Shown here one piece after another: positions 3,115-35,670 of a DNA stretch of 35,670 nt. Each line of letters starts with the position of its first letter. Position 1 is the stretch's first letter. Made by a program: the position numbers and the translations under genes. Origin of the DNA: a virus; IMG/VR virus record IMGVR_UViG_3300007542_000014, positions 1 to 35,670 of that record. One strand, written 5' to 3'. The notes below the pieces were generated by a model. The model was not told where the DNA came from and did no database searches. It worked only from the letters and a program-made list of their open reading frames with translations.

Positions 3115-3878
3115 AGTTAGACGAAATATTAGCTAATAAAGAGCTAGCAATACTGAAGAAGAAAACAGAGATTCAAAAGTCTGATTTCTCAAATGTATTG
3201 TTTGATTCAGTAGAAAAGGCGTATAATAATAGTATTTCTAAGTTAGAGGTATTAGTTTATGAAGCAGTTATTTCTAAAGAACGTAACGAAGAAATGTTTA
3301 AGCAGTATCTTAACGGTTGGGTTTTAAATCACTCAGTAGGTATGCGTTATGTTAAGTTGCTTTTTTGCTACAATAACGATGAACCAAGCTATACACAAGA
3401 AAAGGAAAACTTTGACAAGTATTACGACCAGATACTAAACAAGGACGATGTAGGCGAGTATTTTTGGGCGGTATTAGAAGCTAAAAATATAGAGGGTTCG
3501 GCAGTTGTTAAGGGTTCAAACTTCTTAACTCCTGTTTTAAGCCTTGAAATATTAGACGAAAATACAATTAAGGTAAAAGTAGCCGTATCGCCTAGTAATG
3601 TGATAGATTCTCATAAAGATGTTCATATCCCTAATATTTGGAAAAAGACTCTAAATGAAAATAATTACGATTTACTATTACAAGAGCATGATATGGATTT
3701 CAAGAATGTAATAGTTGATTCGATTACAGGAGATTTAAAGGTATATACTGAAATGATAGCCGTTAAAGAATTAATGTCTAAGTTTCAAAAAAATAAATCG
3801 GCAGCCGTTAAAAACACTACCGAACAAAAAGAAGAGCCGTCAAAAGACACTCAAACACGAAGAAGAGTTATTTATTAA
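3111..3878 (+). CDS. Prohead protease-like protein with rearranged domain order
   Basis: This 255-residue protein sits where the HK97-type prohead protease is expected, just before the capsid gene. It contains the conserved blocks of the Bacteroidota prohead proteases (U35-like), but in unusual order. Residues 47-145 hold what is normally the C-terminal half: NHSVGMRYVKL around 73-83 with the presumed catalytic Ser75, then WAVLEAKNIEGSAVVKGSN (119-137). Residues 152-222 hold what is normally the N-terminal half: DSHKDVHIPNIWKKTL (166-181) and LLQEHDM (189-195) with the presumed catalytic His193. The leader MKLDEILANKE looks like the usual N-terminus. The C-terminus is Lys/Glu-rich. Function would be cleavage of capsid delta domains. 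The order claim is from memory of the family and needs a structure prediction. Confidence 0.68.
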   Translation: MKLDEILANKELAILKKKTEIQKSDFSNVLFDSVEKAYNNSISKLEVLVYEAVISKERNEEMFKQYLNGWVLNHSVGMRYVKLLFCYNNDEPSYTQEKENFDKYYDQILNKDDVGEYFWAVLEAKNIEGSAVVKGSNFLTPVLSLEILDENTIKVKVAVSPSNVIDSHKDVHIPNIWKKTLNENNYDLLLQEHDMDFKNVIVDSITGDLKVYTEMIAVKELMSKFQKNKSAAVKNTTEQKEEPSKDTQTRRRVIY

Positions 3879-3896
3879 TTAAATTAAATTTTAAAA

Positions 3897-5150
3897 ATGT
3901 TTACATTAAAAACACAAGAAGAAATTGATAAAATGACACCTCAAGAGGTGGACAAATATCAAGCAGACAAGTCGGCTCACGATGCGCAAGTAAGAAAAGA
4001 AGAAATTGAAAGCGCAATCAAAGAAGCAACAAAGAACAACGCTACTAAAGAAGAAATTGAAGCGTTAAAAACACAATTAGGGTCGATTAACGACGCAATC
4101 ATGGAAGTAAAAGAAAGTCAAAAAACTAATGCTAATGATGTAGAAAAGTCTATCAAAGAGCAAGTTAAAGACTTTTTAACAAACGACGCTAACAAAGCTG
4201 ATTTCGATAAATTAAAATCTGATAAATCTGCATCTATGACATTTGTTGTAAAAGCAGCAGCAGATATGTTGATTTCAACAAATACAACTGGTCGAGTAGC
4301 TAGACAAGACAGAGAAGCTGGCTCTAACAGAACTGTTAGACGCAGACCATTTGTATTAGATAACGTTACAGTTACTTCTACAACTGGAAATACTCTTTAT
4401 TGGGTAGACCAAATTAACCCAGACGGAACACCTGCAATGACAGCAGAGGGAGCGACAAAGGCGCAAATTGATTGGGATTACATCGAAAGAAGTACGCCAG
4501 TAAGAAAAATTACGGCTTATACTAAAGTTTCAAAAGAAATGTTAGACGATATTGATGGCTTTGCTGCTGATATTGATGCTGAATTAACTGAAAGAATTAT
4601 GCTTTTTGCTGATGCTCAGGCGTTAACAGGAGACGGAACAGGACAAAATATCGTAGGTATTTCGGTAAATGCGACACCTTTTGCAGCGGGCGGATTGGCT
4701 AATTTAGTAGTTGGAGCAAATGATACCGATGCTTTAAGAGCGGCAGTAGCACAAGTATATAGACAAGAATTTGTACCAAACAAAATCTTTATCCATCCTG
4801 ATAAAGCTGCTTTAATGGACTTACAAAAAGGAACAGACGAGCATTACTTATTACCTCCATTTGTAACTGCTGACGGTATGAATATTAGAGGTGTAATGGT
4901 TGAAACTAATACAGGAGTAGGTTCGGATGATTTCTATGTGGGTGATTTTACTAAGTATAAATTCAAGATTAGAGAAGGAATCTCAATACAAATAGGTTAT
5001 GATGGTAATGACTGGACTAAAAATATGGTCACTCCATTAGCTGAAATGCGAGGAGCTGGTTATATCTCAAGTACAAATTACGGTGCAATTGTGAAAGGTA
5101 CTTTTACAGTAGCTAAGGCATTACTTGACCCAGCGGTAGCAGATTCTTAA
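3897..5150 (+). CDS. Major capsid protein, HK97 fold
   Basis: This 417-residue protein has an N-terminal charged coiled-coil segment (about residues 1-110, rich in Glu, Lys and Gln) that matches a delta/scaffold domain. The HK97-fold body follows: TVTSTTGNTLYWVDQ around 163-177, then the E-loop and P-domain region with VSKEMLDDI, the usual ALTGDGTGQNIVGI segment, and IFIHPDKAALMDLQKG. A C-terminal segment with VGDFTKYKFKIREGISIQIG completes the A-domain. Length and order match Phage_capsid (PF05065). Protease cleavage probably falls between residues 100 and 125; the exact site cannot be read from the sequence. Confidence 0.92.
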   Translation: MFTLKTQEEIDKMTPQEVDKYQADKSAHDAQVRKEEIESAIKEATKNNATKEEIEALKTQLGSINDAIMEVKESQKTNANDVEKSIKEQVKDFLTNDANKADFDKLKSDKSASMTFVVKAAADMLISTNTTGRVARQDREAGSNRTVRRRPFVLDNVTVTSTTGNTLYWVDQINPDGTPAMTAEGATKAQIDWDYIERSTPVRKITAYTKVSKEMLDDIDGFAADIDAELTERIMLFADAQALTGDGTGQNIVGISVNATPFAAGGLANLVVGANDTDALRAAVAQVYRQEFVPNKIFIHPDKAALMDLQKGTDEHYLLPPFVTADGMNIRGVMVETNTGVGSDDFYVGDFTKYKFKIREGISIQIGYDGNDWTKNMVTPLAEMRGAGYISSTNYGAIVKGTFTVAKALLDPAVADS

Positions 5151-5174
5151 TATTAACATTTAATTTATATAAAA

Positions 5175-5315
5175 ATGGCACAAGAGAAAATCATAGGCTT
5201 TTACGAAGAAAATACAGTTGAAATTATTATTGCAGGTAAAAAATGCAGAGTAAATAAATACGAAGCCGAAGCGTTAAAAGCTAAGTTAGACAAGAATACA
5301 AAAAGTAAAAAATAA
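5175..5315 (+). CDS. Small protein after capsid, unknown
   Basis: This 46-residue ORF begins MAQEKIIGFYEENTVEIIIA and ends in a run of Lys and Ser. It fits snugly between the capsid and the next head gene and has the strong AAAA-ATG context used by its neighbours. A short beta-strand section followed by a helix is likely. Position suggests a minor head or connector accessory protein. No family is recognised. Confidence 0.6.
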   Translation: MAQEKIIGFYEENTVEIIIAGKKCRVNKYEAEALKAKLDKNTKSKK

Positions 5316-5320
5316 TAACA

Positions 5321-5971
5321 ATGCCGAATATAATTAACAATACTTATTTCATCAACGACCTTTACATACCATTAGGGAATGGTACTGTAAGTGGTTTACC
5401 TGTAAATACTTCAACACCTAGCAACTCAGTTGCTTTAGCTGATACTATTACGGAAGTAGAAAAAGAATTGTCAATTAACGCATTTGGATTAACTTTATAC
5501 GACCTTTTACAGACCGCATTAATAGACATTGATTCGGCTGACGCGAGATTTCAAATTTTAGTGAAAGGAGGTGATTATATTCTAAATAGTAAGACTTACA
5601 GATGGGAGGGTCTTAACTCTCCCAAAAGTCTTATTTGTTACGCAATTTACTATGACTTTTTAAGTAATAACAGCAGTTTTTACAACTCTATTGGTGTTAC
5701 AAAACCAAACAGCGAAAACGCAAGTAATGTAAATCCAAATTACAAATTAGCGACTGCATGGCAAACGTTTTTGAGAAAGTATCAAGGTGGATGCTTAGCT
5801 GAACCCTTTTGTTATCAAGATTCTGGTGTTCATTTTATTGATTATTACGGAACGAATGAAAACCAAATTAGGTCTTTGTTTCAGTTCTTAAATGACAATG
5901 CAAGTGATTATCCAGAGTGGACTAATACGGACTTTAGACTTTATGAATCGATTAATACTTTTGGTTTATGA
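5321..5971 (+). CDS. Putative head-tail connector/adaptor protein
   Basis: This 216-residue protein lies immediately after the head genes. The central part reads KTYRWEGLNSPKSLICYAIYYDFL (split around residues 91-114), a stretch I associate with DUF6712-type proteins of Bacteroidota phages found in the head-tail joining position. The C-terminal third is rich in aromatic residues. The expected role is the adaptor ring under the portal. Support comes from position and general resemblance rather than a diagnostic motif. The stop overlaps the next ORF as ATGA. Confidence 0.5.
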   Translation: MPNIINNTYFINDLYIPLGNGTVSGLPVNTSTPSNSVALADTITEVEKELSINAFGLTLYDLLQTALIDIDSADARFQILVKGGDYILNSKTYRWEGLNSPKSLICYAIYYDFLSNNSSFYNSIGVTKPNSENASNVNPNYKLATAWQTFLRKYQGGCLAEPFCYQDSGVHFIDYYGTNENQIRSLFQFLNDNASDYPEWTNTDFRLYESINTFGL

Positions 5972-11370: not shown

Positions 11371-14014
11371 TGACTTTACATTTTACTTAGAATTTACTTA
11401 CGGTCGTGTAGAAATACTTGAACCTGTCGGGTACGATGGTGCTAATTGGATATTATCACAAGATAAGAACCGATACGCCCGTGACGTAATGTATGGTAGT
11501 GATAAAGTAAAGTTAAAGTTTGAAGAAGCATACGGAGAACCTTGCGAGCCTTACATTTTAGATAATGGTGTTATTGTAAATTATTTAGGTTCCGGATGGG
11601 ATTTATTGTTAGAAGAAAATAGAAATTTCGGAACTGAATCGGATGTTAAATTTATTGTTAACGATGGTACGGACGAGTTTTCTAGTGCTTTAAACTTTGC
11701 TGAGAGCAATACGGATGATTTCAGTTACATTGAACTGTCGTTAATTCAAGAAGATACATTAGCAGTTTATAAACGTCAAGAAAAGACACCTGTTAATTTA
11801 TTTAGCGACAAAGATTTAAAAGGTAATACAATTACACCGATTGATACAGTTAATGTATTGTTTAAAGCTAAACCTGTTACTCAGGTAAGCGGATGGGGGC
11901 AAAGTAGAAGACAGTTTGCGGTAGGCTCTCCAATTAATATGGTGGCTCTTGGAGCTGGATTTAATAGATTTAACCCTTGTCAAAATGTACTAAGCTACGG
12001 AATAGAGGACACTTTAAGTAATTTTGATACTTCCTTTAGTTTTGCCACATTACCAGAAAAAGCAAGATTTGTAAGAGCAGCGACAAGTTTGACAAATTTA
12101 AAGTTAAAAGTAGATAGTTCAATTATACACCATCATAGATTTAATGATATTTCTGACCCTTTCGGAAATCCTTCACGTTCTATATTTGAAATTCGTATAG
12201 GTAAGTCGGCAGATGGAACTACATTAACAACCTCGCAAGATGTTTACTCTGATGTTATTACTGCGGATTTTGCAGTAAATAACCCTGTTCCATCATTAAT
12301 TGAATTAGATGTTAATTTTGAATTGAATCAAGGCGAATATTTTCTAATTTGGTTTGAAGCACCAGCAACCATAAGAGCCACTTCGGTGGATTATAACAAT
12401 ACTGCAATAAGTTCATTCTTAACATTTAGTAAATGTGATTTTACACTAACAGCCACATCTACAGCAATAAGTTCAGTAACTAAAGCAGTACGTTATATTG
12501 ATATTGCGAAACAAATTAATAAATCTATTGGCACATTACCATTATCCGCACCAGACTTTGAAAGTGGTGGAAAATGGTATAAAAACGCTTGTTTTAATGG
12601 TAAATTAATACGACAAATTACGGATGAAGCGTTTACGGTAAGTTTAGAAGATTTTCGTAAGTCATTAGGAGAATTTAATAGTGATTATCAGGTTAGTAAT
12701 GAAGAGTTGTTTATCGGGCATGAATCGGATTATTACCAAAATATTGATTTAGGCGGATTTTTAACGCTTCCTGATAAAGATTTTAATAAGCCTAAAAACG
12801 ACCGTTTTTTAATAAATGAATTTGCGTTTTCTTATGAGAATTACGAGAAAGACAAGGACGAAGAAAATACAATTGATGCCATACATACGGAAGCTAAATT
12901 TTTAGTACCTCAGTTAAAAAGCGAAAACAGCCGAGAGGTAAAATGTAATTTTGCACGTGACCCATTTTATGGTGAAAGAATAAGAAGACAAAATACATTA
13001 AGTAATACAACTGCTTACGATAGTGATGATAAAGTTTTAATATATGAAATTATTGAACTTGCTCCGAATAGCAGAGGAGAAATAAACCAAATATTAACTT
13101 ATAATGCGGTTGCTGGAGTAAGTATTCAAATATTAGCCAATAAAACATTTAGATGGGATTTATTAGGTTTTAAAGTGGGCGATTCGGTTATATTAACAGG
13201 AGTAAATACAAGCACACGTACTGTTTTAGAAATTACACCAAGTACATTAACTTTATCACATACGACAGGTACACTAACCGAAACGAGAAGATTAAAAATT
13301 AACTATCCATTAACTGATGTAGCATACACAATTAGAACAGACGAGGGATTGAATTATGCAGAAAATCTACTTAATTCAGATAATTTTGCAAATTTACGTT
13401 ATTCAATTAAGCGAAACATTTTGAATAATTATAGCGAGTATTTAGCTAGTACTACTTTGTTTACTGCTAGTAAAGAAATAGATAACACTTACTTTAAATC
13501 AAATGGCGAGTGCATCACTCAATTTTTAGATGAAAGCGAGCCAATACAAGAAGACGCTGATTTTATAATTGACCCAACTAAGAAGATATTGAATCAAAAT
13601 TTAATAGATACGACTGTTAGTTGTTCATTTTCTGATTATAAGGCGTTACTTGAATCGGTTCAGAATGACAAAGGATTTATACGAGTGATTGATAACAACG
13701 AAAGAGTTTTAAAAGGATTTCCTCAAGAATTGGACTATAATTTTAAGGCTAATGAATTAACTTTATTGCTTGAAGAAAAGTATGAAAGTGATTTCTTAGT
13801 GATTACTTATAATGGTATTAACTTTACTATTAATGAGGTTGGATATGATACTGAAACTGTTACCGAAAGAAGATATAATATTTTTAATGATAAAATACAG
13901 TTTTTTGATAAAAATAACTTAATTTTGTCTAACCGCACTTTATTTAGTAAAGTTCAATATAATGGAGTAGTCTATAACTCAGTAGATGAATTAGTAATTG
14001 CATTAGAATCTTAA
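11363..14014 (+). CDS. Distal tail / tail-tip protein, large
   Basis: This 883-residue protein follows the tape measure with an 8-base overlap, the position of distal tail or tail-associated (Tal) proteins. It is rich in beta strands with repeated short acidic loops and has no transmembrane or peptidase motif that I can see. A segment around residues 395-450 (APDFESGGKWYKNACFNGKL and following) recalls baseplate-hub proteins of Bacteroidota phages. It probably forms the tail tip and may carry the first receptor contact. The assignment is from position, size and composition. Confidence 0.6.
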   Translation: MINDFTFYLEFTYGRVEILEPVGYDGANWILSQDKNRYARDVMYGSDKVKLKFEEAYGEPCEPYILDNGVIVNYLGSGWDLLLEENRNFGTESDVKFIVNDGTDEFSSALNFAESNTDDFSYIELSLIQEDTLAVYKRQEKTPVNLFSDKDLKGNTITPIDTVNVLFKAKPVTQVSGWGQSRRQFAVGSPINMVALGAGFNRFNPCQNVLSYGIEDTLSNFDTSFSFATLPEKARFVRAATSLTNLKLKVDSSIIHHHRFNDISDPFGNPSRSIFEIRIGKSADGTTLTTSQDVYSDVITADFAVNNPVPSLIELDVNFELNQGEYFLIWFEAPATIRATSVDYNNTAISSFLTFSKCDFTLTATSTAISSVTKAVRYIDIAKQINKSIGTLPLSAPDFESGGKWYKNACFNGKLIRQITDEAFTVSLEDFRKSLGEFNSDYQVSNEELFIGHESDYYQNIDLGGFLTLPDKDFNKPKNDRFLINEFAFSYENYEKDKDEENTIDAIHTEAKFLVPQLKSENSREVKCNFARDPFYGERIRRQNTLSNTTAYDSDDKVLIYEIIELAPNSRGEINQILTYNAVAGVSIQILANKTFRWDLLGFKVGDSVILTGVNTSTRTVLEITPSTLTLSHTTGTLTETRRLKINYPLTDVAYTIRTDEGLNYAENLLNSDNFANLRYSIKRNILNNYSEYLASTTLFTASKEIDNTYFKSNGECITQFLDESEPIQEDADFIIDPTKKILNQNLIDTTVSCSFSDYKALLESVQNDKGFIRVIDNNERVLKGFPQELDYNFKANELTLLLEEKYESDFLVITYNGINFTINEVGYDTETVTERRYNIFNDKIQFFDKNNLILSNRTLFSKVQYNGVVYNSVDELVIALES

Positions 14015-19489: not shown

Positions 19490-19632
19490 ATTGCACTTTA
19501 GTAGAAAAACCGAACTCACTAATTAACGAACTTAAAAGACAAAGAGAATTTTTACTCCTTGACCTTAAATTTGCAGAAGCTAAATTATTAAATAAAAAAG
19601 AGCATGGATCAAATAACATTACAACGGATTGA
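19486..19632 (+). CDS. Small helical protein overlapping endolysin start
   Basis: This 48-residue ORF starts at an ATGA overlap with the upstream membrane protein gene and ends 29 bases inside the endolysin gene. It begins MNCTLVEKPNSLINELKRQR and is predicted to be one long charged helix (LLLDLKFAEAKLLNKKEHG). The Cys at residue 3 is not preceded by a signal, so it is not a lipoprotein. It could tune translation of the endolysin through overlap. Evidence is the tight coupling only. Confidence 0.45.
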   Translation: MNCTLVEKPNSLINELKRQREFLLLDLKFAEAKLLNKKEHGSNNITTD

Positions 19633-20050
19633 ATTAATGCATCCTACATTAAGGGATAAATTAAGAGCGGAATATCTTGAGATAAACAAACAACTCCCTA
19701 AAGGCGTTCGTTTACGTTTTACACATACTTTAAGAACTATTGAGGAGCAAGACGCATTGTATAAAAAAAGACCAAAAGTAACAAATGCAAAAGGCGGGCA
19801 ATCTATACATAATTATGGAATGGCTTTTGATATTTGCATTTTATTAGATAAAGACAGCAACGGTACATTTGAAAGCGTTGTATGGGATGGAAAGTATTTC
19901 GACCAAGTTGTAGCTTACTTTAAGTCTAAATGTTGGGAATGGGGCGGAGATTGGGTTAAATTCAAAGATAATCCACATTTCCAAGTCAAAGGTGCTAATT
20001 GGAGAAATTTAATAAATTTACCTAAAAAAAACGGTTACCCTATCATTTAA
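19604..20050 (+). CDS. Endolysin, M15 (VanY/L-Ala-D-Glu type) peptidase
   Basis: This 148-residue enzyme would cut peptidoglycan stem peptides at the end of infection. The zinc-peptidase signature is complete: SIHNYGMAFD at residues 67-76 (metal ligands His69 and Asp76) and WEWGGDWVKFKDNPHFQ (111-127) with the third ligand His125 and a nearby Asp116. The order and spacing fit Peptidase_M15_4 of T5 and A500 endolysin type. No signal peptide is present, so release through a holin is expected, and the three membrane genes upstream fit this. A terminator-like hairpin follows at 20109-20137. Confidence 0.92.
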   Translation: MDQITLQRIELMHPTLRDKLRAEYLEINKQLPKGVRLRFTHTLRTIEEQDALYKKRPKVTNAKGGQSIHNYGMAFDICILLDKDSNGTFESVVWDGKYFDQVVAYFKSKCWEWGGDWVKFKDNPHFQVKGANWRNLINLPKKNGYPII

Positions 20051-20598: not shown

Positions 20599-20627
20599 AA
20601 ACCGTTCTATTTCAGAGCGGTTTTTTT
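20599..20627 (+). terminator. Rho-independent terminator
   Basis: AAACCGTTCT (20599-20608) pairs with AGAGCGGTTT (20614-20623) with one G-T pair and a 5-base loop, followed by T to 20627. It closes the 55-residue gene unit. Confidence 0.85.
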
Positions 20628-20640
20628 GTATATTTACTTT

Positions 20641-21282
20641 ATGAAAAAACTACCCTACATTGTAATAGCTGTTTTATTGGCTATTATTTGGTTTCAAGGT
20701 TGCAAGGAACAACCGAAGCCTAAAGATAGAATTATAATTAAAGAGATTAAAGGCGAGTTTGAGCCAATTAAACCGATAAAGACTAAACCAATTACACAAA
20801 AGTATATTGATTCGGTTAAATCAACTGTAAAGCGTTCAGAAAGCAATAAGAAGTATCTTAACGATATTTCGGAACTATATGCGGAAAATGAAAGGCTAAA
20901 ACAAAACTACATTGATGCGGATAGTTTGAAAAGAGAATTAATATATCTTAAGTCTATCCAACTAAGCGAGTTTTACCACGAGTTCGATAACGATACTATT
21001 AATATAATGGTTAAAGGAATAGTTCAAGGCGAGGTTAAGCAGTTACAACCATTTTACAAAATAAAAGAAAGAACTATCCCAATCCCTGAGGTTAAATTTA
21101 GAATGTTAGTAGGTGGTGGTGTTGGTATTAATAAAGAATTAAATCAAGGAGTTTATAAATTTAATTTAAGCTTTCAAAATAAAAACTATAATATAATAAG
21201 AGCATCTTATATGCAAATCGGACAACAAAAATATGGTATTGCCGAGTATGATTTTAGTTTGTTTAAAATTAAAAAACCCTAA
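20641..21282 (+). CDS. Lipoprotein with coiled coil, spanin candidate
   Basis: The product is 213 residues from ATG 20641; an in-frame TTG upstream would only spoil the signal. Residues 1-21 form a lipoprotein signal (MKKLPYIVIAVLLAIIWFQG then Cys, lipobox FQGC). A Pro/Lys-rich linker follows (residues 22-60), then a long coiled coil (about 60-105). Residues 150-213 form a beta-rich end (RMLVGGGVGINKELNQG). A lipid-anchored coiled-coil protein near the endolysin fits an outer-membrane spanin. The beta-rich end is unusual for that role. A box resembling TATATTTA stands 12 bases before the ATG, so transcription may start almost at the ATG. Confidence 0.6.
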   Translation: MKKLPYIVIAVLLAIIWFQGCKEQPKPKDRIIIKEIKGEFEPIKPIKTKPITQKYIDSVKSTVKRSESNKKYLNDISELYAENERLKQNYIDADSLKRELIYLKSIQLSEFYHEFDNDTINIMVKGIVQGEVKQLQPFYKIKERTIPIPEVKFRMLVGGGVGINKELNQGVYKFNLSFQNKNYNIIRASYMQIGQQKYGIAEYDFSLFKIKKP

Positions 21283-28569: not shown

Positions 28570-30420
28570 ATGGCAAATATTCAAGATTGGAATTTAATCG
28601 ACAGTAATAAGACAAACGGAACGGCAAAATTAAAATGCCCTGTTTGCACACCAATAAGAAAAAATAAAAGTGACAGAAGCCTTTTTGTAAATTTTAACAA
28701 TGGTGTTGCTAAATGTTTTAATAATGGTTGTGATGCTTTATTCTTTCGTGATAGCATAGAAAAAAGTATAGTTCAAAATAATTACACGCTACCAAGTCAG
28801 GAATTTAGAAATTATACTAAACTTTCAGATAAATTGGTTAAATACTGTGAGGATGTAAGAAAAATTAAACAATACACTTTAAATAAGTTTGAAGTTACAG
28901 AAGAGTCATACTACCAACCGTCAACACAAAAAGAAGAAAATAATATTGTTTTTAATTATTTCGAAGGAGATACTTTGGTAAATAAAAAATATCGTTCTGG
29001 AACTAAGAAATTTACACAAAGCAAAAACGGAAAACCAATATTTTACAATATTAATTCTATTATTGGTCAAGATGAATGCTACATTGTAGAAGGTGAGTTT
29101 GATGTAATGGCTTTGTATGAAGTTGGTATTGAGAATGTAATTTCAATTCCTAATGGAGCAAATGACAATGATAATTATTGGGTTAATTCTGAAAAATACA
29201 TCAAAGACATTAAAAAGTTTTACATTGCAACTGACAACGATGAGAGCGGAAATAATGTAGCTGAAAAGATAGCGCAACGTTTAGGGCGTTGGAGATGTGA
29301 AAGAGTTTTATTTGACGGTAAAGATGCAAACGAAGATTTAATTAATGGTGTTTTAGAAAAATCAATTTACAATACAAAAAAATATCCTGTTAGTGGTACT
29401 TTTAGTGTATCAGATTTATATGATGATATTTTAGAACTTTACGATAAAGGTTTACCTGATACTATCTATCCAAAACAAAAATGGTTCGGTAATCTAAAAA
29501 ATAACTATTCTGTAATGCGTGGGCATTTGATTACTGGAACTGGTATTCCATCTCATGGTAAATCAAACTTTACAGAATGGTATGTTTTAAATTTGCTTTT
29601 CGATTATAATTTAAAAGTTAGTTTTTTCTCTCCTGAGCATAGCCCAATGGCATTACATCAAAGTACATTTATACAAAAGGTTACAGGAAGAAGTTTTTGG
29701 AAAGACCACGAAAATTTGCCAAGAATCACAAAAGAAGAAATTGCGAAGTATCACGATTGGGCGAATGAGAAAATTTATTTAACTTCCCCTGATAATGGAG
29801 ATGTGGCAAATTGGGATTGGCTTATAGATAAATTTAAAGAGCAAATGATAACTTTTGGAATTGATATTTTTGTTATCGATGCATTTAATAAAGTTGAATT
29901 GCAAGGGAAAGAAACTTTAAAAGAAATAAACAAAGTCCTTACAAAATTAACATCATTTGCTCAAGCTAACAATGTAATTATATTTTTGATTGCACATCCT
30001 ACTAAAATGAAAAAAAACAATGAGGGTATTTATGATATGCCAAGTTTATACGATGTGTCGGGTTCTGCTGATTTTAGAAACCAAACGCACGACGGATTTT
30101 GTGTTTATAGATATTTTGCAAATGAAAATGGTCAAGAAGATTTTACAAGAATAGTAAATTTAAAAACAAAGTTTAGTTTTCAAGGCAATATCGGAGAGTT
30201 TGAAGATTTCGAGTATCATTTACCTAGCGGAAGGTATTACGCTAAAGATACGGAAGCACCAACTTTTTCTTTAATTGATTTTTATAAAAAAGATAAAGAG
30301 CAAATAAATAAACAGATTGAAGAAGAAGAACCAAAAATTTACACAGCTACTCCAGAAGAAGCATTTGGAGAAGTTGACCCGTTCGGAAATGAATTAAATA
30401 ATAATGAAGTACCATTTTAA
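28570..30420 (+). CDS. Primase-helicase (TOPRIM and DnaB-like)
   Basis: This 616-residue fusion resembles T7 gp4 in plan. A zinc-binding part uses CPVC (residues 23-26), Cys49 and Cys54. The TOPRIM primase part has EGEFD (174-178) and DNDESG (222-227). The helicase part has Walker A GIPSHGKS (325-332), Walker B FVIDAF (434-439) and a sensor-like HPTK (476-479). It would unwind DNA and make primers at the fork. Its C-terminus ends NNEVPF, like an SSB tail. It follows the DUF6291 gene by two bases. Identification is firm for helicase and TOPRIM parts, good for the zinc part. Confidence 0.9.
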   Translation: MANIQDWNLIDSNKTNGTAKLKCPVCTPIRKNKSDRSLFVNFNNGVAKCFNNGCDALFFRDSIEKSIVQNNYTLPSQEFRNYTKLSDKLVKYCEDVRKIKQYTLNKFEVTEESYYQPSTQKEENNIVFNYFEGDTLVNKKYRSGTKKFTQSKNGKPIFYNINSIIGQDECYIVEGEFDVMALYEVGIENVISIPNGANDNDNYWVNSEKYIKDIKKFYIATDNDESGNNVAEKIAQRLGRWRCERVLFDGKDANEDLINGVLEKSIYNTKKYPVSGTFSVSDLYDDILELYDKGLPDTIYPKQKWFGNLKNNYSVMRGHLITGTGIPSHGKSNFTEWYVLNLLFDYNLKVSFFSPEHSPMALHQSTFIQKVTGRSFWKDHENLPRITKEEIAKYHDWANEKIYLTSPDNGDVANWDWLIDKFKEQMITFGIDIFVIDAFNKVELQGKETLKEINKVLTKLTSFAQANNVIIFLIAHPTKMKKNNEGIYDMPSLYDVSGSADFRNQTHDGFCVYRYFANENGQEDFTRIVNLKTKFSFQGNIGEFEDFEYHLPSGRYYAKDTEAPTFSLIDFYKKDKEQINKQIEEEEPKIYTATPEEAFGEVDPFGNELNNNEVPF

Positions 30421-30565: not shown

Positions 30566-30627
30566 ATCACGAAATAAAAATAAAACCTTTATTATGTTTT
30601 TGGATAAAGATAATTGACTATATTTGA
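30562..30627 (+). CDS. 21-residue peptide ORF, doubtful
   Basis: An ATGA overlap starts MNHEIKIKPLLCFWIKIIDY and it stops one residue later, inside the TATATTTG box of the promoter at 30600-30626. It may be a truncated gene interrupted by insertion of the downstream endonuclease unit. Confidence 0.25.
   Translation: MNHEIKIKPLLCFWIKIIDYI
30600..30626 (+). promoter_or_regulatory. Promoter of second endonuclease gene
   Basis: TTG (30600-30602) and TATATTTG (30619-30626) are separated by 16 bases, shorter than elsewhere. The expected start site falls at or near the ATG at 30630, so the mRNA would be leaderless. Confidence 0.5.
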
Positions 30628-30629
30628 AT

Positions 30630-31541
30630 ATGGAAAACGTAGAAAAAATAATAGAACTTTATAAGGAATTAAAGTCTATTTGGAAAGTAGGAGAAAAATT
30701 GGGTATTTCTGGTCAAAAAGTTAATTATATTTTGAATAATAACGGAATAGACACATCAAAAAAACCAGAGTTTACTGAACTACAAATAAAAGAATTAATT
30801 GAAATTTATAAAAAAATGGAAGTTGGTGACGGAACTCTTGAATCATACTGCAATAAACATAATAAATCAAAACCAAATGTTTGTAGAAAAGCAAAAAGAT
30901 TAGGATTAACAAATGAATCTAGAAAACATTGTAAAGATTCTAAAAAAAATATGTCAAACAAAATGAAATGTATTATTTTAAATAACGGACATCCAAAAGG
31001 AATGCTTGGTAAAAAACATACTATTGAAAATAAAATTAAGTTTAGTAAACAATTTTCAGAAATGTGGAAAAATCCAAAAAGCAAAGTTAATTCAGAAGAA
31101 CACAAACAATTATTATCAGATAGATTTTCATATATGCAAACAACTGGAAAAATAAAAGGAGGATACTCTAGAGGTAAACAAGGATGGTATTTAATAAATG
31201 GGAAAGAAATATATTTCAGGAGTTTATGGGAGGCAAACTACGCATTGTATTTAGATTTTCTAATCAAAAACAATATGATAAAATCATGGTCATTTGAAAA
31301 AAAAGTATTCTGGTTTGAAAAAATAAAGAGAGGAGTAAGAAGTTATAAACCAGATTTTGAAGTAATAGAGAATAATGGAGAAGTAGTTTATCATGAAGTA
31401 AAAGGATATATGGATTCAAAAAGCAAAACAAAAATTAATAGAATGAGAATATACCACCCAAATGTTAAGTTAATAATAATTGATAAACCTATATATAATA
31501 ATATTTTATCAAAACTAAAAGGAATTGTTAATTTTATTTAA
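30630..31541 (+). CDS. PD-(D/E)XK endonuclease, homing type
   Basis: This 303-residue protein uses the ATG at 30630; an upstream TTG would overlap the promoter. The first 100 residues hold two helix-turn-helix-like units (KLGISGQKVNYILNNNGID and the region around SKPNVCRKAKRLGL) for site recognition. A middle linker (residues 105-180) is Lys-rich. The nuclease core reads FRSLWEANYALYLDF (197-211), then PDF (241-243) and HEVKG (255-259), giving Asp242, Glu256 and Lys258 of the PD-(D/E)XK motif. It has its own promoter and probably acts as a mobile or host-DNA-cutting element. Confidence 0.75.
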   Translation: MENVEKIIELYKELKSIWKVGEKLGISGQKVNYILNNNGIDTSKKPEFTELQIKELIEIYKKMEVGDGTLESYCNKHNKSKPNVCRKAKRLGLTNESRKHCKDSKKNMSNKMKCIILNNGHPKGMLGKKHTIENKIKFSKQFSEMWKNPKSKVNSEEHKQLLSDRFSYMQTTGKIKGGYSRGKQGWYLINGKEIYFRSLWEANYALYLDFLIKNNMIKSWSFEKKVFWFEKIKRGVRSYKPDFEVIENNGEVVYHEVKGYMDSKSKTKINRMRIYHPNVKLIIIDKPIYNNILSKLKGIVNFI

Positions 31542-32358: not shown

Positions 32359-32553
32359 ATGGAAATAATTAAAAAACTTCAAGATTTACAAAAAGAATCG
32401 GGTAAAACTAGCTACCAAATAGCTAAAGAAACGGGTTTGTCTAAAAATAATGTTTACGAATTGCTGGATAATAAAAACTTAAACCCGAAATTATCAACGC
32501 TTAATAAGATTGGAAAAATATTCGGGATAACTTTAAAATGGACGAAATTATGA
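32359..32553 (+). CDS. Cro/CI-type helix-turn-helix regulator
   Basis: This 64-residue protein is one XRE-family DNA-binding domain: MEIIKKLQDLQKESGKTSYQ, then IAKETGLSKNNVYELLDNKN with the two HTH helices (residues about 20-40), then LSTLNKIGKIFGITLKW. No oligomerisation or protease domain follows, so it is Cro-like rather than a lysogenic repressor. It may control the early promoters that share a spacer motif. It overlaps the next gene by four bases. Confidence 0.78.
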   Translation: MEIIKKLQDLQKESGKTSYQIAKETGLSKNNVYELLDNKNLNPKLSTLNKIGKIFGITLKWTKL

Positions 32554-33035
32554 AAACAATTAAAACGATTATTTTACTATTCGTATGTGCTGTAAGTTGC
32601 GCACAAAACTACGACAAACGATTTACGGTATCAATTAACACTGAACCGAATGCTATTATCAAAGATGGTTTTAACTTTGGTGTCAACATCGATTACCAAA
32701 TGACTTATACCTATTTCAAAGCGGGTATCTATTCTTTTCCTGACTTAAACAAAGTAGGTTATTTCCAATACCATGGAGCTATTGGATTGAATAAACACTT
32801 AGGACTTTTTGAAGATTCACGTGTTTATTTAGGTTTGGTATTGGGTGCTAACTTTAGACAAGGAAACAGCAACCCGATTGCAGGAGTTGAAGTGGGGTAT
32901 CAGTATTATATTTCTGAAAAGATAGGTATTGGAGTAAACGCATCGGAATTGTATAGAGGGGATTCGAAATATTACGGAAGTGATAGAGTGGTTTATAACG
33001 GATCGATTGAATTAATATTTAAAATAGGGAAGTAA
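32550..33035 (+). CDS. Predicted outer-membrane beta-barrel protein
   Basis: The preferred ATG at 32550 gives 161 residues with a clear signal peptide (KTIKTIILLFVCAVSCA, cut before QNYDKRF, a usual Bacteroidota site). The rest is made of amphipathic beta strands separated by short loops (FTVSINTEPN, FGVNIDYQMTYTYFKAGIY, RVYLGLVLGANF, AGVEVGYQYYI, IGIGVNASELY), ending in strand SIELIFKIGK. This is like an 8-stranded barrel of OmpX/porin type. A phage barrel in the host outer membrane could mask a receptor, alter adsorption or exclude other phages. A lipoprotein reading of AVSC is less likely. Confidence 0.65.
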   Translation: MKTIKTIILLFVCAVSCAQNYDKRFTVSINTEPNAIIKDGFNFGVNIDYQMTYTYFKAGIYSFPDLNKVGYFQYHGAIGLNKHLGLFEDSRVYLGLVLGANFRQGNSNPIAGVEVGYQYYISEKIGIGVNASELYRGDSKYYGSDRVVYNGSIELIFKIGK

Positions 33036-33340: not shown

Positions 33341-33383
33341 ACTTGCCACTAATAAAAAAATTAACACTTAAATATTTTACACA

Positions 33384-33875
33384 ATGAAAACAATTTTATT
33401 ATTATTAGCTACAATAGCTACATTCGGACAAACAAATTTGATTATCGATTCAAATATGACAATCGGTCAAAACTGCGGACAAGGACAACCAAACCAAACG
33501 CTAACAGTGCAGGATTTAAATTTTAACGGAGATTATATCCTAACATTAAAGGGTATTAATTTGTTTATACTTGGAAACGTAAATGGAACAGGAACAATTA
33601 CTAACTTTTGTAATAACAATCAATCAACTGCATGTTATAACGGCTGGTACAACGGCAATGTTACTACATATGGAATTATTTTAGTTAGTTGTTCGAGTTT
33701 ATCAATACAAATGTTCAATCCAACAATCAACCAAGATTTGCAATTCAAGATTTATGACTTAAACGGTAGGGTATTATTATCAGGCAAAACAAGTGCCAAC
33801 ATGTACGAGACTCTAAGCAAAGGTGTTTACCTGATAGAAGTAGAAGGATTTAAAATTTTTAAGAAAGCGATATGA
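33384..33875 (+). CDS. Predicted type IX secretion system (Por) cargo protein
   Basis: This 163-residue protein has an N-terminal signal (MKTILLLLATIATFG, likely cut before QTNLI). The middle part (residues 20-105) is a small beta-rich domain with four Cys (31, 76, 84, 103). The C-terminal 57 residues match the type A sorting tail (TIGR04183): FNPTINQDLQFKIYDLNGRV (111-130) and LSKGVYLIEVEGFKIFKKAI (144-163). In Bacteroidota this tail sends proteins through the outer membrane and anchors them on the surface. It would put a phage protein on or outside the host cell. Function of the small domain is unknown; no enzyme motif is visible. Confidence 0.75.
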   Translation: MKTILLLLATIATFGQTNLIIDSNMTIGQNCGQGQPNQTLTVQDLNFNGDYILTLKGINLFILGNVNGTGTITNFCNNNQSTACYNGWYNGNVTTYGIILVSCSSLSIQMFNPTINQDLQFKIYDLNGRVLLSGKTSANMYETLSKGVYLIEVEGFKIFKKAI

Positions 33876-34021
33876 AGTCATTTAAGCTATTATTTTTATC
33901 ATTAATAAAGAAGAGTACCAAAATGCCAAAAGACGCTTTTAATGACGTTATAAATAGCAAATGCAACGCTAATTGCGAGAATTGTGTATGTCAAATTAAT
34001 AAACAACATTTTAAATTATGA
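33872..34021 (+). CDS. Small Cys-rich peptide gene
   Basis: This 49-residue ORF overlaps the stop of the preceding gene as ATGA and ends in an ATGA overlap with the next one. Its end reads KCNANCENCVCQI, four Cys packed in ten residues, fit to bind zinc or an iron-sulfur cluster. The N-terminus MKSFKLLFLSLIKK is basic and weakly amphipathic. No family is recognised. Confidence 0.5.
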   Translation: MKSFKLLFLSLIKKSTKMPKDAFNDVINSKCNANCENCVCQINKQHFKL

Positions 34022-35547: not shown

Positions 35548-35670
35548 ACAATGTGCAAAAAGAAATACATAGAGTCACCGGAAAAAATGTGGGAGTTATT
35601 TTTAGCTTATAAAAAAGAAGTTAAAAATAATCCTGTATTAGTTGAGGATTATGTAGGTAAAGATGCCGAT
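35548..35670. repeat. Direct terminal repeat, right copy
   Basis: Identical to positions 1-123. It carries the start of the small terminase gene again, so the contig closes on itself. Confidence 0.95.
35551..35670 (+). CDS. terS: Second copy of small terminase start (partial, from circular overlap)
   Basis: The first 40 codons of the small terminase gene appear again and run off the end of the contig. This is the same gene as at position 4, not a second copy; it shows that the sequence upstream (late promoter, Cse60-like gene and Shine-Dalgarno hairpin) is the true upstream context of the terminase operon. Confidence 0.9.
   Translation, partial: MCKKKYIESPEKMWELFLAYKKEVKNNPVLVEDYVGKDAD

Follow-up and report, generated by a model that had tools for sequence, protein, structure and literature searches.

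We describe here a two-gene cassette in a phage genome, IMG/VR virus record IMGVR_UViG_3300007542_000014, of which positions 1 to 35,670, the whole stretch of DNA analysed, are called the window below. The second gene of the cassette (33,384–33,875) codes for an exported protein whose C-terminus is, going by its profile matches, a recognizable type A sorting domain of the type IX secretion system (T9SS), and the first codes for a small predicted outer-membrane β-barrel. The link between barrel and partner is established by the conserved pairing of their genes in three phages, which bears out the original prediction that the phage gene encodes an exported protein carrying such a sorting domain and is linked to a barrel gene. 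In light of this, we propose that the two genes form a portable moron cassette that alters the cell surface of the infected Flavobacteriaceae host, with the partner travelling by way of T9SS, a reading that, taken as a whole, we regard as evenly poised between right and wrong. The features of the locus are as follows:

33,384–33,875, + strand: second cassette gene, an open reading frame (ORF) for a predicted T9SS-tailed exported protein of 163 aa, with a TIGR04183 match over the cut-off and homologues beside the same barrel in two further phages (G007 and G008)
33,384–33,428, + strand: signal peptide, residues 1–15, with predicted SPI cleavage before Gln16, called from the sequence, from homologues ending in GA/Q and from its Q-rule fit
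33,429–33,698, + strand: apparently β-rich body, residues 16–105, with four Cys kept in the homologues, drawn from the alignment, Cys columns, low-confidence model strands and dN/dS
33,708–33,872, + strand: predicted type A T9SS C-terminal sorting domain (CTD), residues 109–163, drawn from profile matches, a model with pLDDT 57–79 and the presence of CTDs among the best structural matches
33,361–33,380, + strand: 20-bp leader TTAACAMTTAAATATTTTAC directly 5′ of the second cassette gene, identical in all three cassettes and found once in the window, within a blastn match of 45–49 bp over the junction
32,550–33,035, + strand: first cassette gene, for a small predicted outer-membrane β-barrel of 161 aa (ORF listed from 32,538), with seven family sequences in six phage records
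33,038–33,340, + strand: 100-aa hypothetical gene with a C-terminal CxC zinc-like motif, between the cassette genes in the window only

Read from its ATG, the second gene yields 163 residues with the signal peptide and four cysteines that had been predicted: a hydrophobic leader, MKTILLLLATIATFG, stands directly before Gln, with a cleavage site judged by eye to be TFG/Q, and the cysteines occupy positions 31, 76, 84 and 103. The leaders of both cassette genes, in the window as in its cassette relatives, stop at Ala or Gly before Gln and hence fit the Bacteroidetes Q-rule for signal peptide cleavage (PMC5837995). The motifs and the Lys-rich end on which the sorting-signal proposal was founded are likewise all present in the tail, as YDLNGR, LSKGVYLIEVEG and a terminal FKIFKKAI. 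Of the two profiles named for checking it, TIGR04183 matched residues 112–155 with 26.5 bits (E = 4.5e-6), passing its cut-off of 23, while PF18962 matched residues 106–157 with 23.7 bits (E = 6.1e-5), below its gathering score of 27; the fit to the type A signal therefore held for the former profile, with the reservation that the usual N-terminal PNP strand motif is missing and the TIGR04183 match begins at profile position 14. We also prepared a CTD profile of our own, drawing on the CTDs of five solved proteins and of two phage proteins (L015 and L016) and excluding the window protein. Against this, the window protein scored 25.2 bits, a value reached by none of 2000 shuffles of its tail (the best at 12.3); the runner-up among the ORFs of the window scored 5.1 bits.

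In an AlphaFold2 model of the window protein built from the alignment of three sequences, pLDDT was mostly below 50 in the body and had block means of 57–79 over residues 110–163. Foldseek ranked the NucA CTD of 8glk, a T9SS complex, first among the matches of the model (E = 0.16, which alone is not significant), and the model of residues 109–163 resembled the CTD structures 5ag8, 8glk, 7pq4, 8glj, 8gl6 and 8qb1. The best Z scores were 5.4–5.1, with CTDs in the top rows, and a second structural list placed the RgpB, NucA, FspA, RemA and mirolase CTDs at Z 4–5 alongside sandwich folds of transthyretin-like and other kinds, although Z scores of this size may reflect a common arrangement. The model thus supports a β-sandwich for residues 110–163, which alone does not identify a CTD. 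Like the CTDs of RgpB, NucA, FspA, RemA and mirolase (PDB 5ag8, 7pq4, 8glk, 8glj, 8gl6 and 8qb1), the predicted window domain would be a C-terminal β-sandwich sorting domain, of similar length; it differs from them in being shorter at its start and in having no PNP motif. Based on these results, T9SS export of the window protein is likely and constitutes a well-supported prediction.

As a single-sequence query, the 163-aa protein recovered no homologue in phages, plasmids or viral contigs; the barrel, used in its place, led to two cassette relatives on IMG/VR contigs of 18,850 bases (G007, loci L017 and L034) and 49,140 bases (G008, locus L018). Their barrels are 69–70% identical to that of the window, and the gene directly after the barrel in each encodes a 172–173-aa homologue of the window protein (36–37% identity across its whole length; BLASTP E = 9e-28 for L018), in which three Cys fall in exactly the same alignment columns as in the window protein and the fourth lies no more than three columns away. 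At the DNA level G007 and G008 share a single long match, 83% over 1094 bp, that consists of just both cassette genes, the rest being short. Between these two contigs dN/dS (Nei-Gojobori) comes to 0.034 in the barrel and, in the partner, to 0.031 over the body and 0.20 over the tail, so that strong purifying selection acts on both cassette genes, though less on the tail. All three cassettes share the 20-bp leader of the second gene unchanged, even though over 60% of the positions in the proteins are different. A sigma-70 scan gave no support to the early-promoter block once envisaged, returning 50 sites against 46 ± 6.5 in shuffles, no excess; it is this leader that precedes the gene.

G008, which has baseplate-hub genes and shares no terminase match with the window, is a different kind of phage, and its cassette sits between tail genes and recombination-type genes; that of G007 precedes a gene resembling a small terminase by eye (L017:7331–7645), unconfirmed by any PHROG. 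As the cassette is common to otherwise unlike phages, we conclude that it is shuffled between phages. The T9SS-tailed gene was not found in the nine named phage records searched, nor the barrel in six Lillamyvirus, Hattifnattvirus and Muminvirus records or in phi19:1. The same genes are therefore present in different phages and missing from close relatives, as is the mark of a moron; the cassette also lies outside the structural module, and both its proteins have a signal-peptide-like leader.

A barrel-like gene does lie near the partner gene, as had been predicted, and stands one gene upstream of it. That it is an outer-membrane barrel is likely, not proved, based on family matches that are weak, on the signal-peptide-like leaders and on the aromatic C-termini of several members (GFRF, IGTKF and TWNW). 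The family further includes gp20 of Winogradskyella phage Peternella_1 (42.7%), a Mu-like myovirus (PMC8776804), ORF35 of Flavobacterium phage MaF61 (30.8%, E = 2e-3) and a protein on a contig from IMG/VR 3300001373 (31%). Although gp20 and ORF35 belong to the same family as the first cassette gene, neither is followed by a T9SS-tailed partner gene, unlike in the window, and none was seen beside the barrel in the single-barrel records outside the cassette. G007 carries tandem barrel paralogues with the same signal peptide (L017:4305–4796, 37%, and 5004–5489, 69% to the window barrel), which suggests diversification of the barrel. A perfect palindrome, TAATTATGGCGAATTCGCCATAATTA, is found between the barrel and the partner gene of G007 (L017:5487–5551) and in neither G008 nor the window.

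Regarding the wider setting, bases 1–123 of the window recur identically as 35,548–35,670, and this direct terminal repeat indicates a complete phage genome in circular presentation, with the small terminase gene straddling the genome ends. The large terminase (TerL) shares 60.9% identity with its counterparts in Lillamyvirus and related phages that infect Flavobacterium sp. LMO6 and LMO9, and the DNA of the primase region is 72–73% identical to Flavobacterium phages; we infer that the host would be a Flavobacterium-like bacterium. Such hosts usually have a T9SS. The GC fraction of the second cassette gene (0.317) is similar to that of the genome (0.300). It is preceded on the same + strand by a primase gene (28,570–30,420) and a Holliday-junction-resolvase-like gene (30,624–31,541) and followed by the small terminase; the stretch from primase to small terminase measures about 5 kb in the window versus 1.7 kb in Flavobacterium phage sniff9-2, making the cassette region a variable spot. 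Elsewhere in the window an endolysin gene (19,604–20,050) stands beside a lipoprotein-like gene (20,626–21,282), and no integrase was noticed among the ORFs. Right after the second cassette gene is a 49-aa ORF (33,872–34,021) with the Cys motif KCxAxCxNCxC, homologues of which lie at a distance from the cassette in G007 (13,005–13,184) and G008 (45,498–45,746). A DNA methyltransferase of G007 (13,255–13,959) shows 95% protein identity to that of sniff9-2 (L002:1991–2647) where the rest is mostly unlike, pointing to recent gene exchange between the two.

Other routes to relatives of the 163-aa protein were unproductive. A match in bacterial genome contigs (L003) proved to be rRNA-like, with stops throughout the match frame and no ORF that fits, and was rejected; a DNA pattern for the body motif gave 0 matches. 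A self-written consensus tail found no match by tblastn in 50,697 phage records, a result that does not show absence, given how poorly tblastn detects domains this short. Scans with the tail pattern recovered two IMG/VR phage contigs (G004 and G005) with true CTDs on bodies unrelated to the window protein, and the exported 343–357-aa proteins of these contigs show no detectable relation to the window barrel.

Taken together, we posit the following course for the products of the cassette. Both would pass the inner membrane by Sec, the first being a small barrel that would insert into the outer membrane and the second a short, disulphide-capable, β-rich protein whose signal peptide would be removed before Gln16. 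At least in the window phage, the CTD of the latter would then be recognised in the periplasm, and the protein would leave through the host type IX translocon for the cell surface or the medium, there to act with or beside the barrel, the two together altering what the outer surface offers other phages. The cassette may thereby serve surface remodelling or superinfection exclusion, and its most likely purpose would be to mask or block a surface receptor and so exclude additional phages. A more specific version, in which the shuffled two-gene system uses the barrel as a dedicated surface anchor or receptor shield for its T9SS-delivered partner and gives the infected cell T9SS-dependent protection, appears to us unlikely.

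Several observations weigh against this proposal, the most serious of which concern the tails of the two homologues. These are 32–35% identical to the window tail, and the tail is homologous in all three proteins; however, the LSKGVY motif is lost in both (LPKNTVY and LPRDTVL), and the sorting domain was not found conserved, as the L018 tail scores 13.6 bits with TIGR04183 (16.1 in the genome search), below the cut-off, the L017 tail has no match to it, and neither tail matches PF18962. With our own CTD profile they do no better than the top 1–2% of their own shuffles, and hhalign of the two tails alone against real CTDs gives a probability of 9%, rising to 90% once the window tail joins them. 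Given such degenerate tails, T9SS export should not be assumed for the whole family, and it is doubtful as a conserved function; in the homologue branch the T9SS address may either have decayed or be working in a divergent form. In addition, the profile matches of the barrel, considered as a possible 8-stranded outer-membrane type and left unassigned to a family, are all under cut-off (DUF2715, E = 0.0085; the TP0733 family, E = 0.095; OMP_b-brl, E = 0.062), the strands at residues 38–74 and the rest of the modelled body are of too low a confidence for naming a fold, and the host and its T9SS are deduced from the relatives of the phage rather than observed.

The main rival takes the partner to be periplasmic: exported by Sec, it would fold in the periplasm and work with the barrel from inside, the T9SS signal of its CTD-fold module having faded or never mattered. 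The homologue tails below cut-off alongside a highly conserved body, the roughly sixfold faster change of the tail per nonsynonymous site between G007 and G008, and the aptness of four Cys and a signal peptide for the periplasm all suit this alternative; nevertheless, the window copy passes the TIGR04183 cut-off and keeps both LSKGVY and the Lys-rich end, and the tail is still under purifying selection, for which reasons we consider it doubtful, though to be taken seriously. It is rather improbable that the secreted protein is instead a factor in host fitness or competition, acting on other cells or on a substrate through adhesion, toxin-like activity or nutrient capture and not on phage adsorption. 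Such a role resembles that proposed for the T9SS cargo of Cryophage, and T9SS cargo in other phages consist of large enzymes or repeat proteins (PMC7468147; also the 825- and 1053-aa cargo of G004 and G005), but profile searches found no enzyme or adhesin domain in the 163-aa protein, the pairing with a small barrel better fits membrane work, and the lack of a noticed integrase makes long-term host benefit less likely. A profile of the window protein and its homologues (A3) retrieved weak matches only among PDB sequences, the top one being a collagen adhesion protein.

Two small exported proteins, one of them predicted to be in the outer membrane, encoded just before the packaging genes might also suggest a helper of lysis or egress, perturbing the outer membrane at a late stage of infection; as endolysin and the lipoprotein-like gene form a separate cluster, and the cassette of G008 is differently placed, we hold this to be very improbable. 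Scarcely credible is a chance resemblance, by which the end of a β-rich protein merely looks CTD-like: the PF18962 score just below gathering and the missing PNP motif would accord with it, but no shuffle reaches the observed score, the next ORF is 20 bits lower, the model is CTD-like and the tail is homologous across the three proteins. A cassette that alters the cell surface is our favoured explanation.

Phages are known to alter host envelopes, while for their use of T9SS the literature that we found holds a few annotations only. The 1.1-kb cassette is small enough for cloning and for testing whether phages use T9SS during infection, and the three homologues, one with an intact tail and two with decayed ones, offer a natural series for finding the CTD residues that matter. 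On the G004 and G005 contigs, one of which has terminase and portal genes strongly matching PHROGs, the 825- and 1053-aa cargo have CTDs over the cut-off. Both of these T9SS-tailed proteins are made of Cys repeats, GCTDPxAxNYNxxANxDDGSC (L015:8812–11289, with 11474–12547, and L016:5953–9114, with 3326–4357); each is encoded near a similar exported 343–357-aa protein, and these possibly represent another cargo-plus-envelope pair, with no sequence relation to the window pair detected.

The T5 protein Llp is a superinfection exclusion lipoprotein acting on FhuA. The likeness of Llp and similar exclusion proteins to the cassette, as phage-made outer-envelope proteins protecting the infected cell (PMC9586334), is one of functional analogy only; Llp is a lipoprotein without T9SS, and we claim no sequence relation. 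Phage-encoded T9SS cargo was already known. In Cryophage (2020), type A sorting domains are encoded by three variable genes, for which superinfection exclusion or competition was already proposed (PMC7468147), and T9SS sorting domains occur in crAss-like phages of the Bacteroidetes (PMC6949934). The crAss-like ORFs bear BACON repeats near structural genes, whereas the window protein has no BACON match. Like the window protein, the Cryophage cargo are phage-encoded, carry a type A domain and lie in variable genome islands, but they comprise an endoglucanase, a GH39 enzyme and a PA14 protein, in contrast to 163 residues with no enzyme domain in a barrel-paired cassette. New relative to these systems are a small cargo that lacks any recognised enzyme domain, the barrel that is its fixed partner, the movement of the cassette between phages and the decay of the tail.
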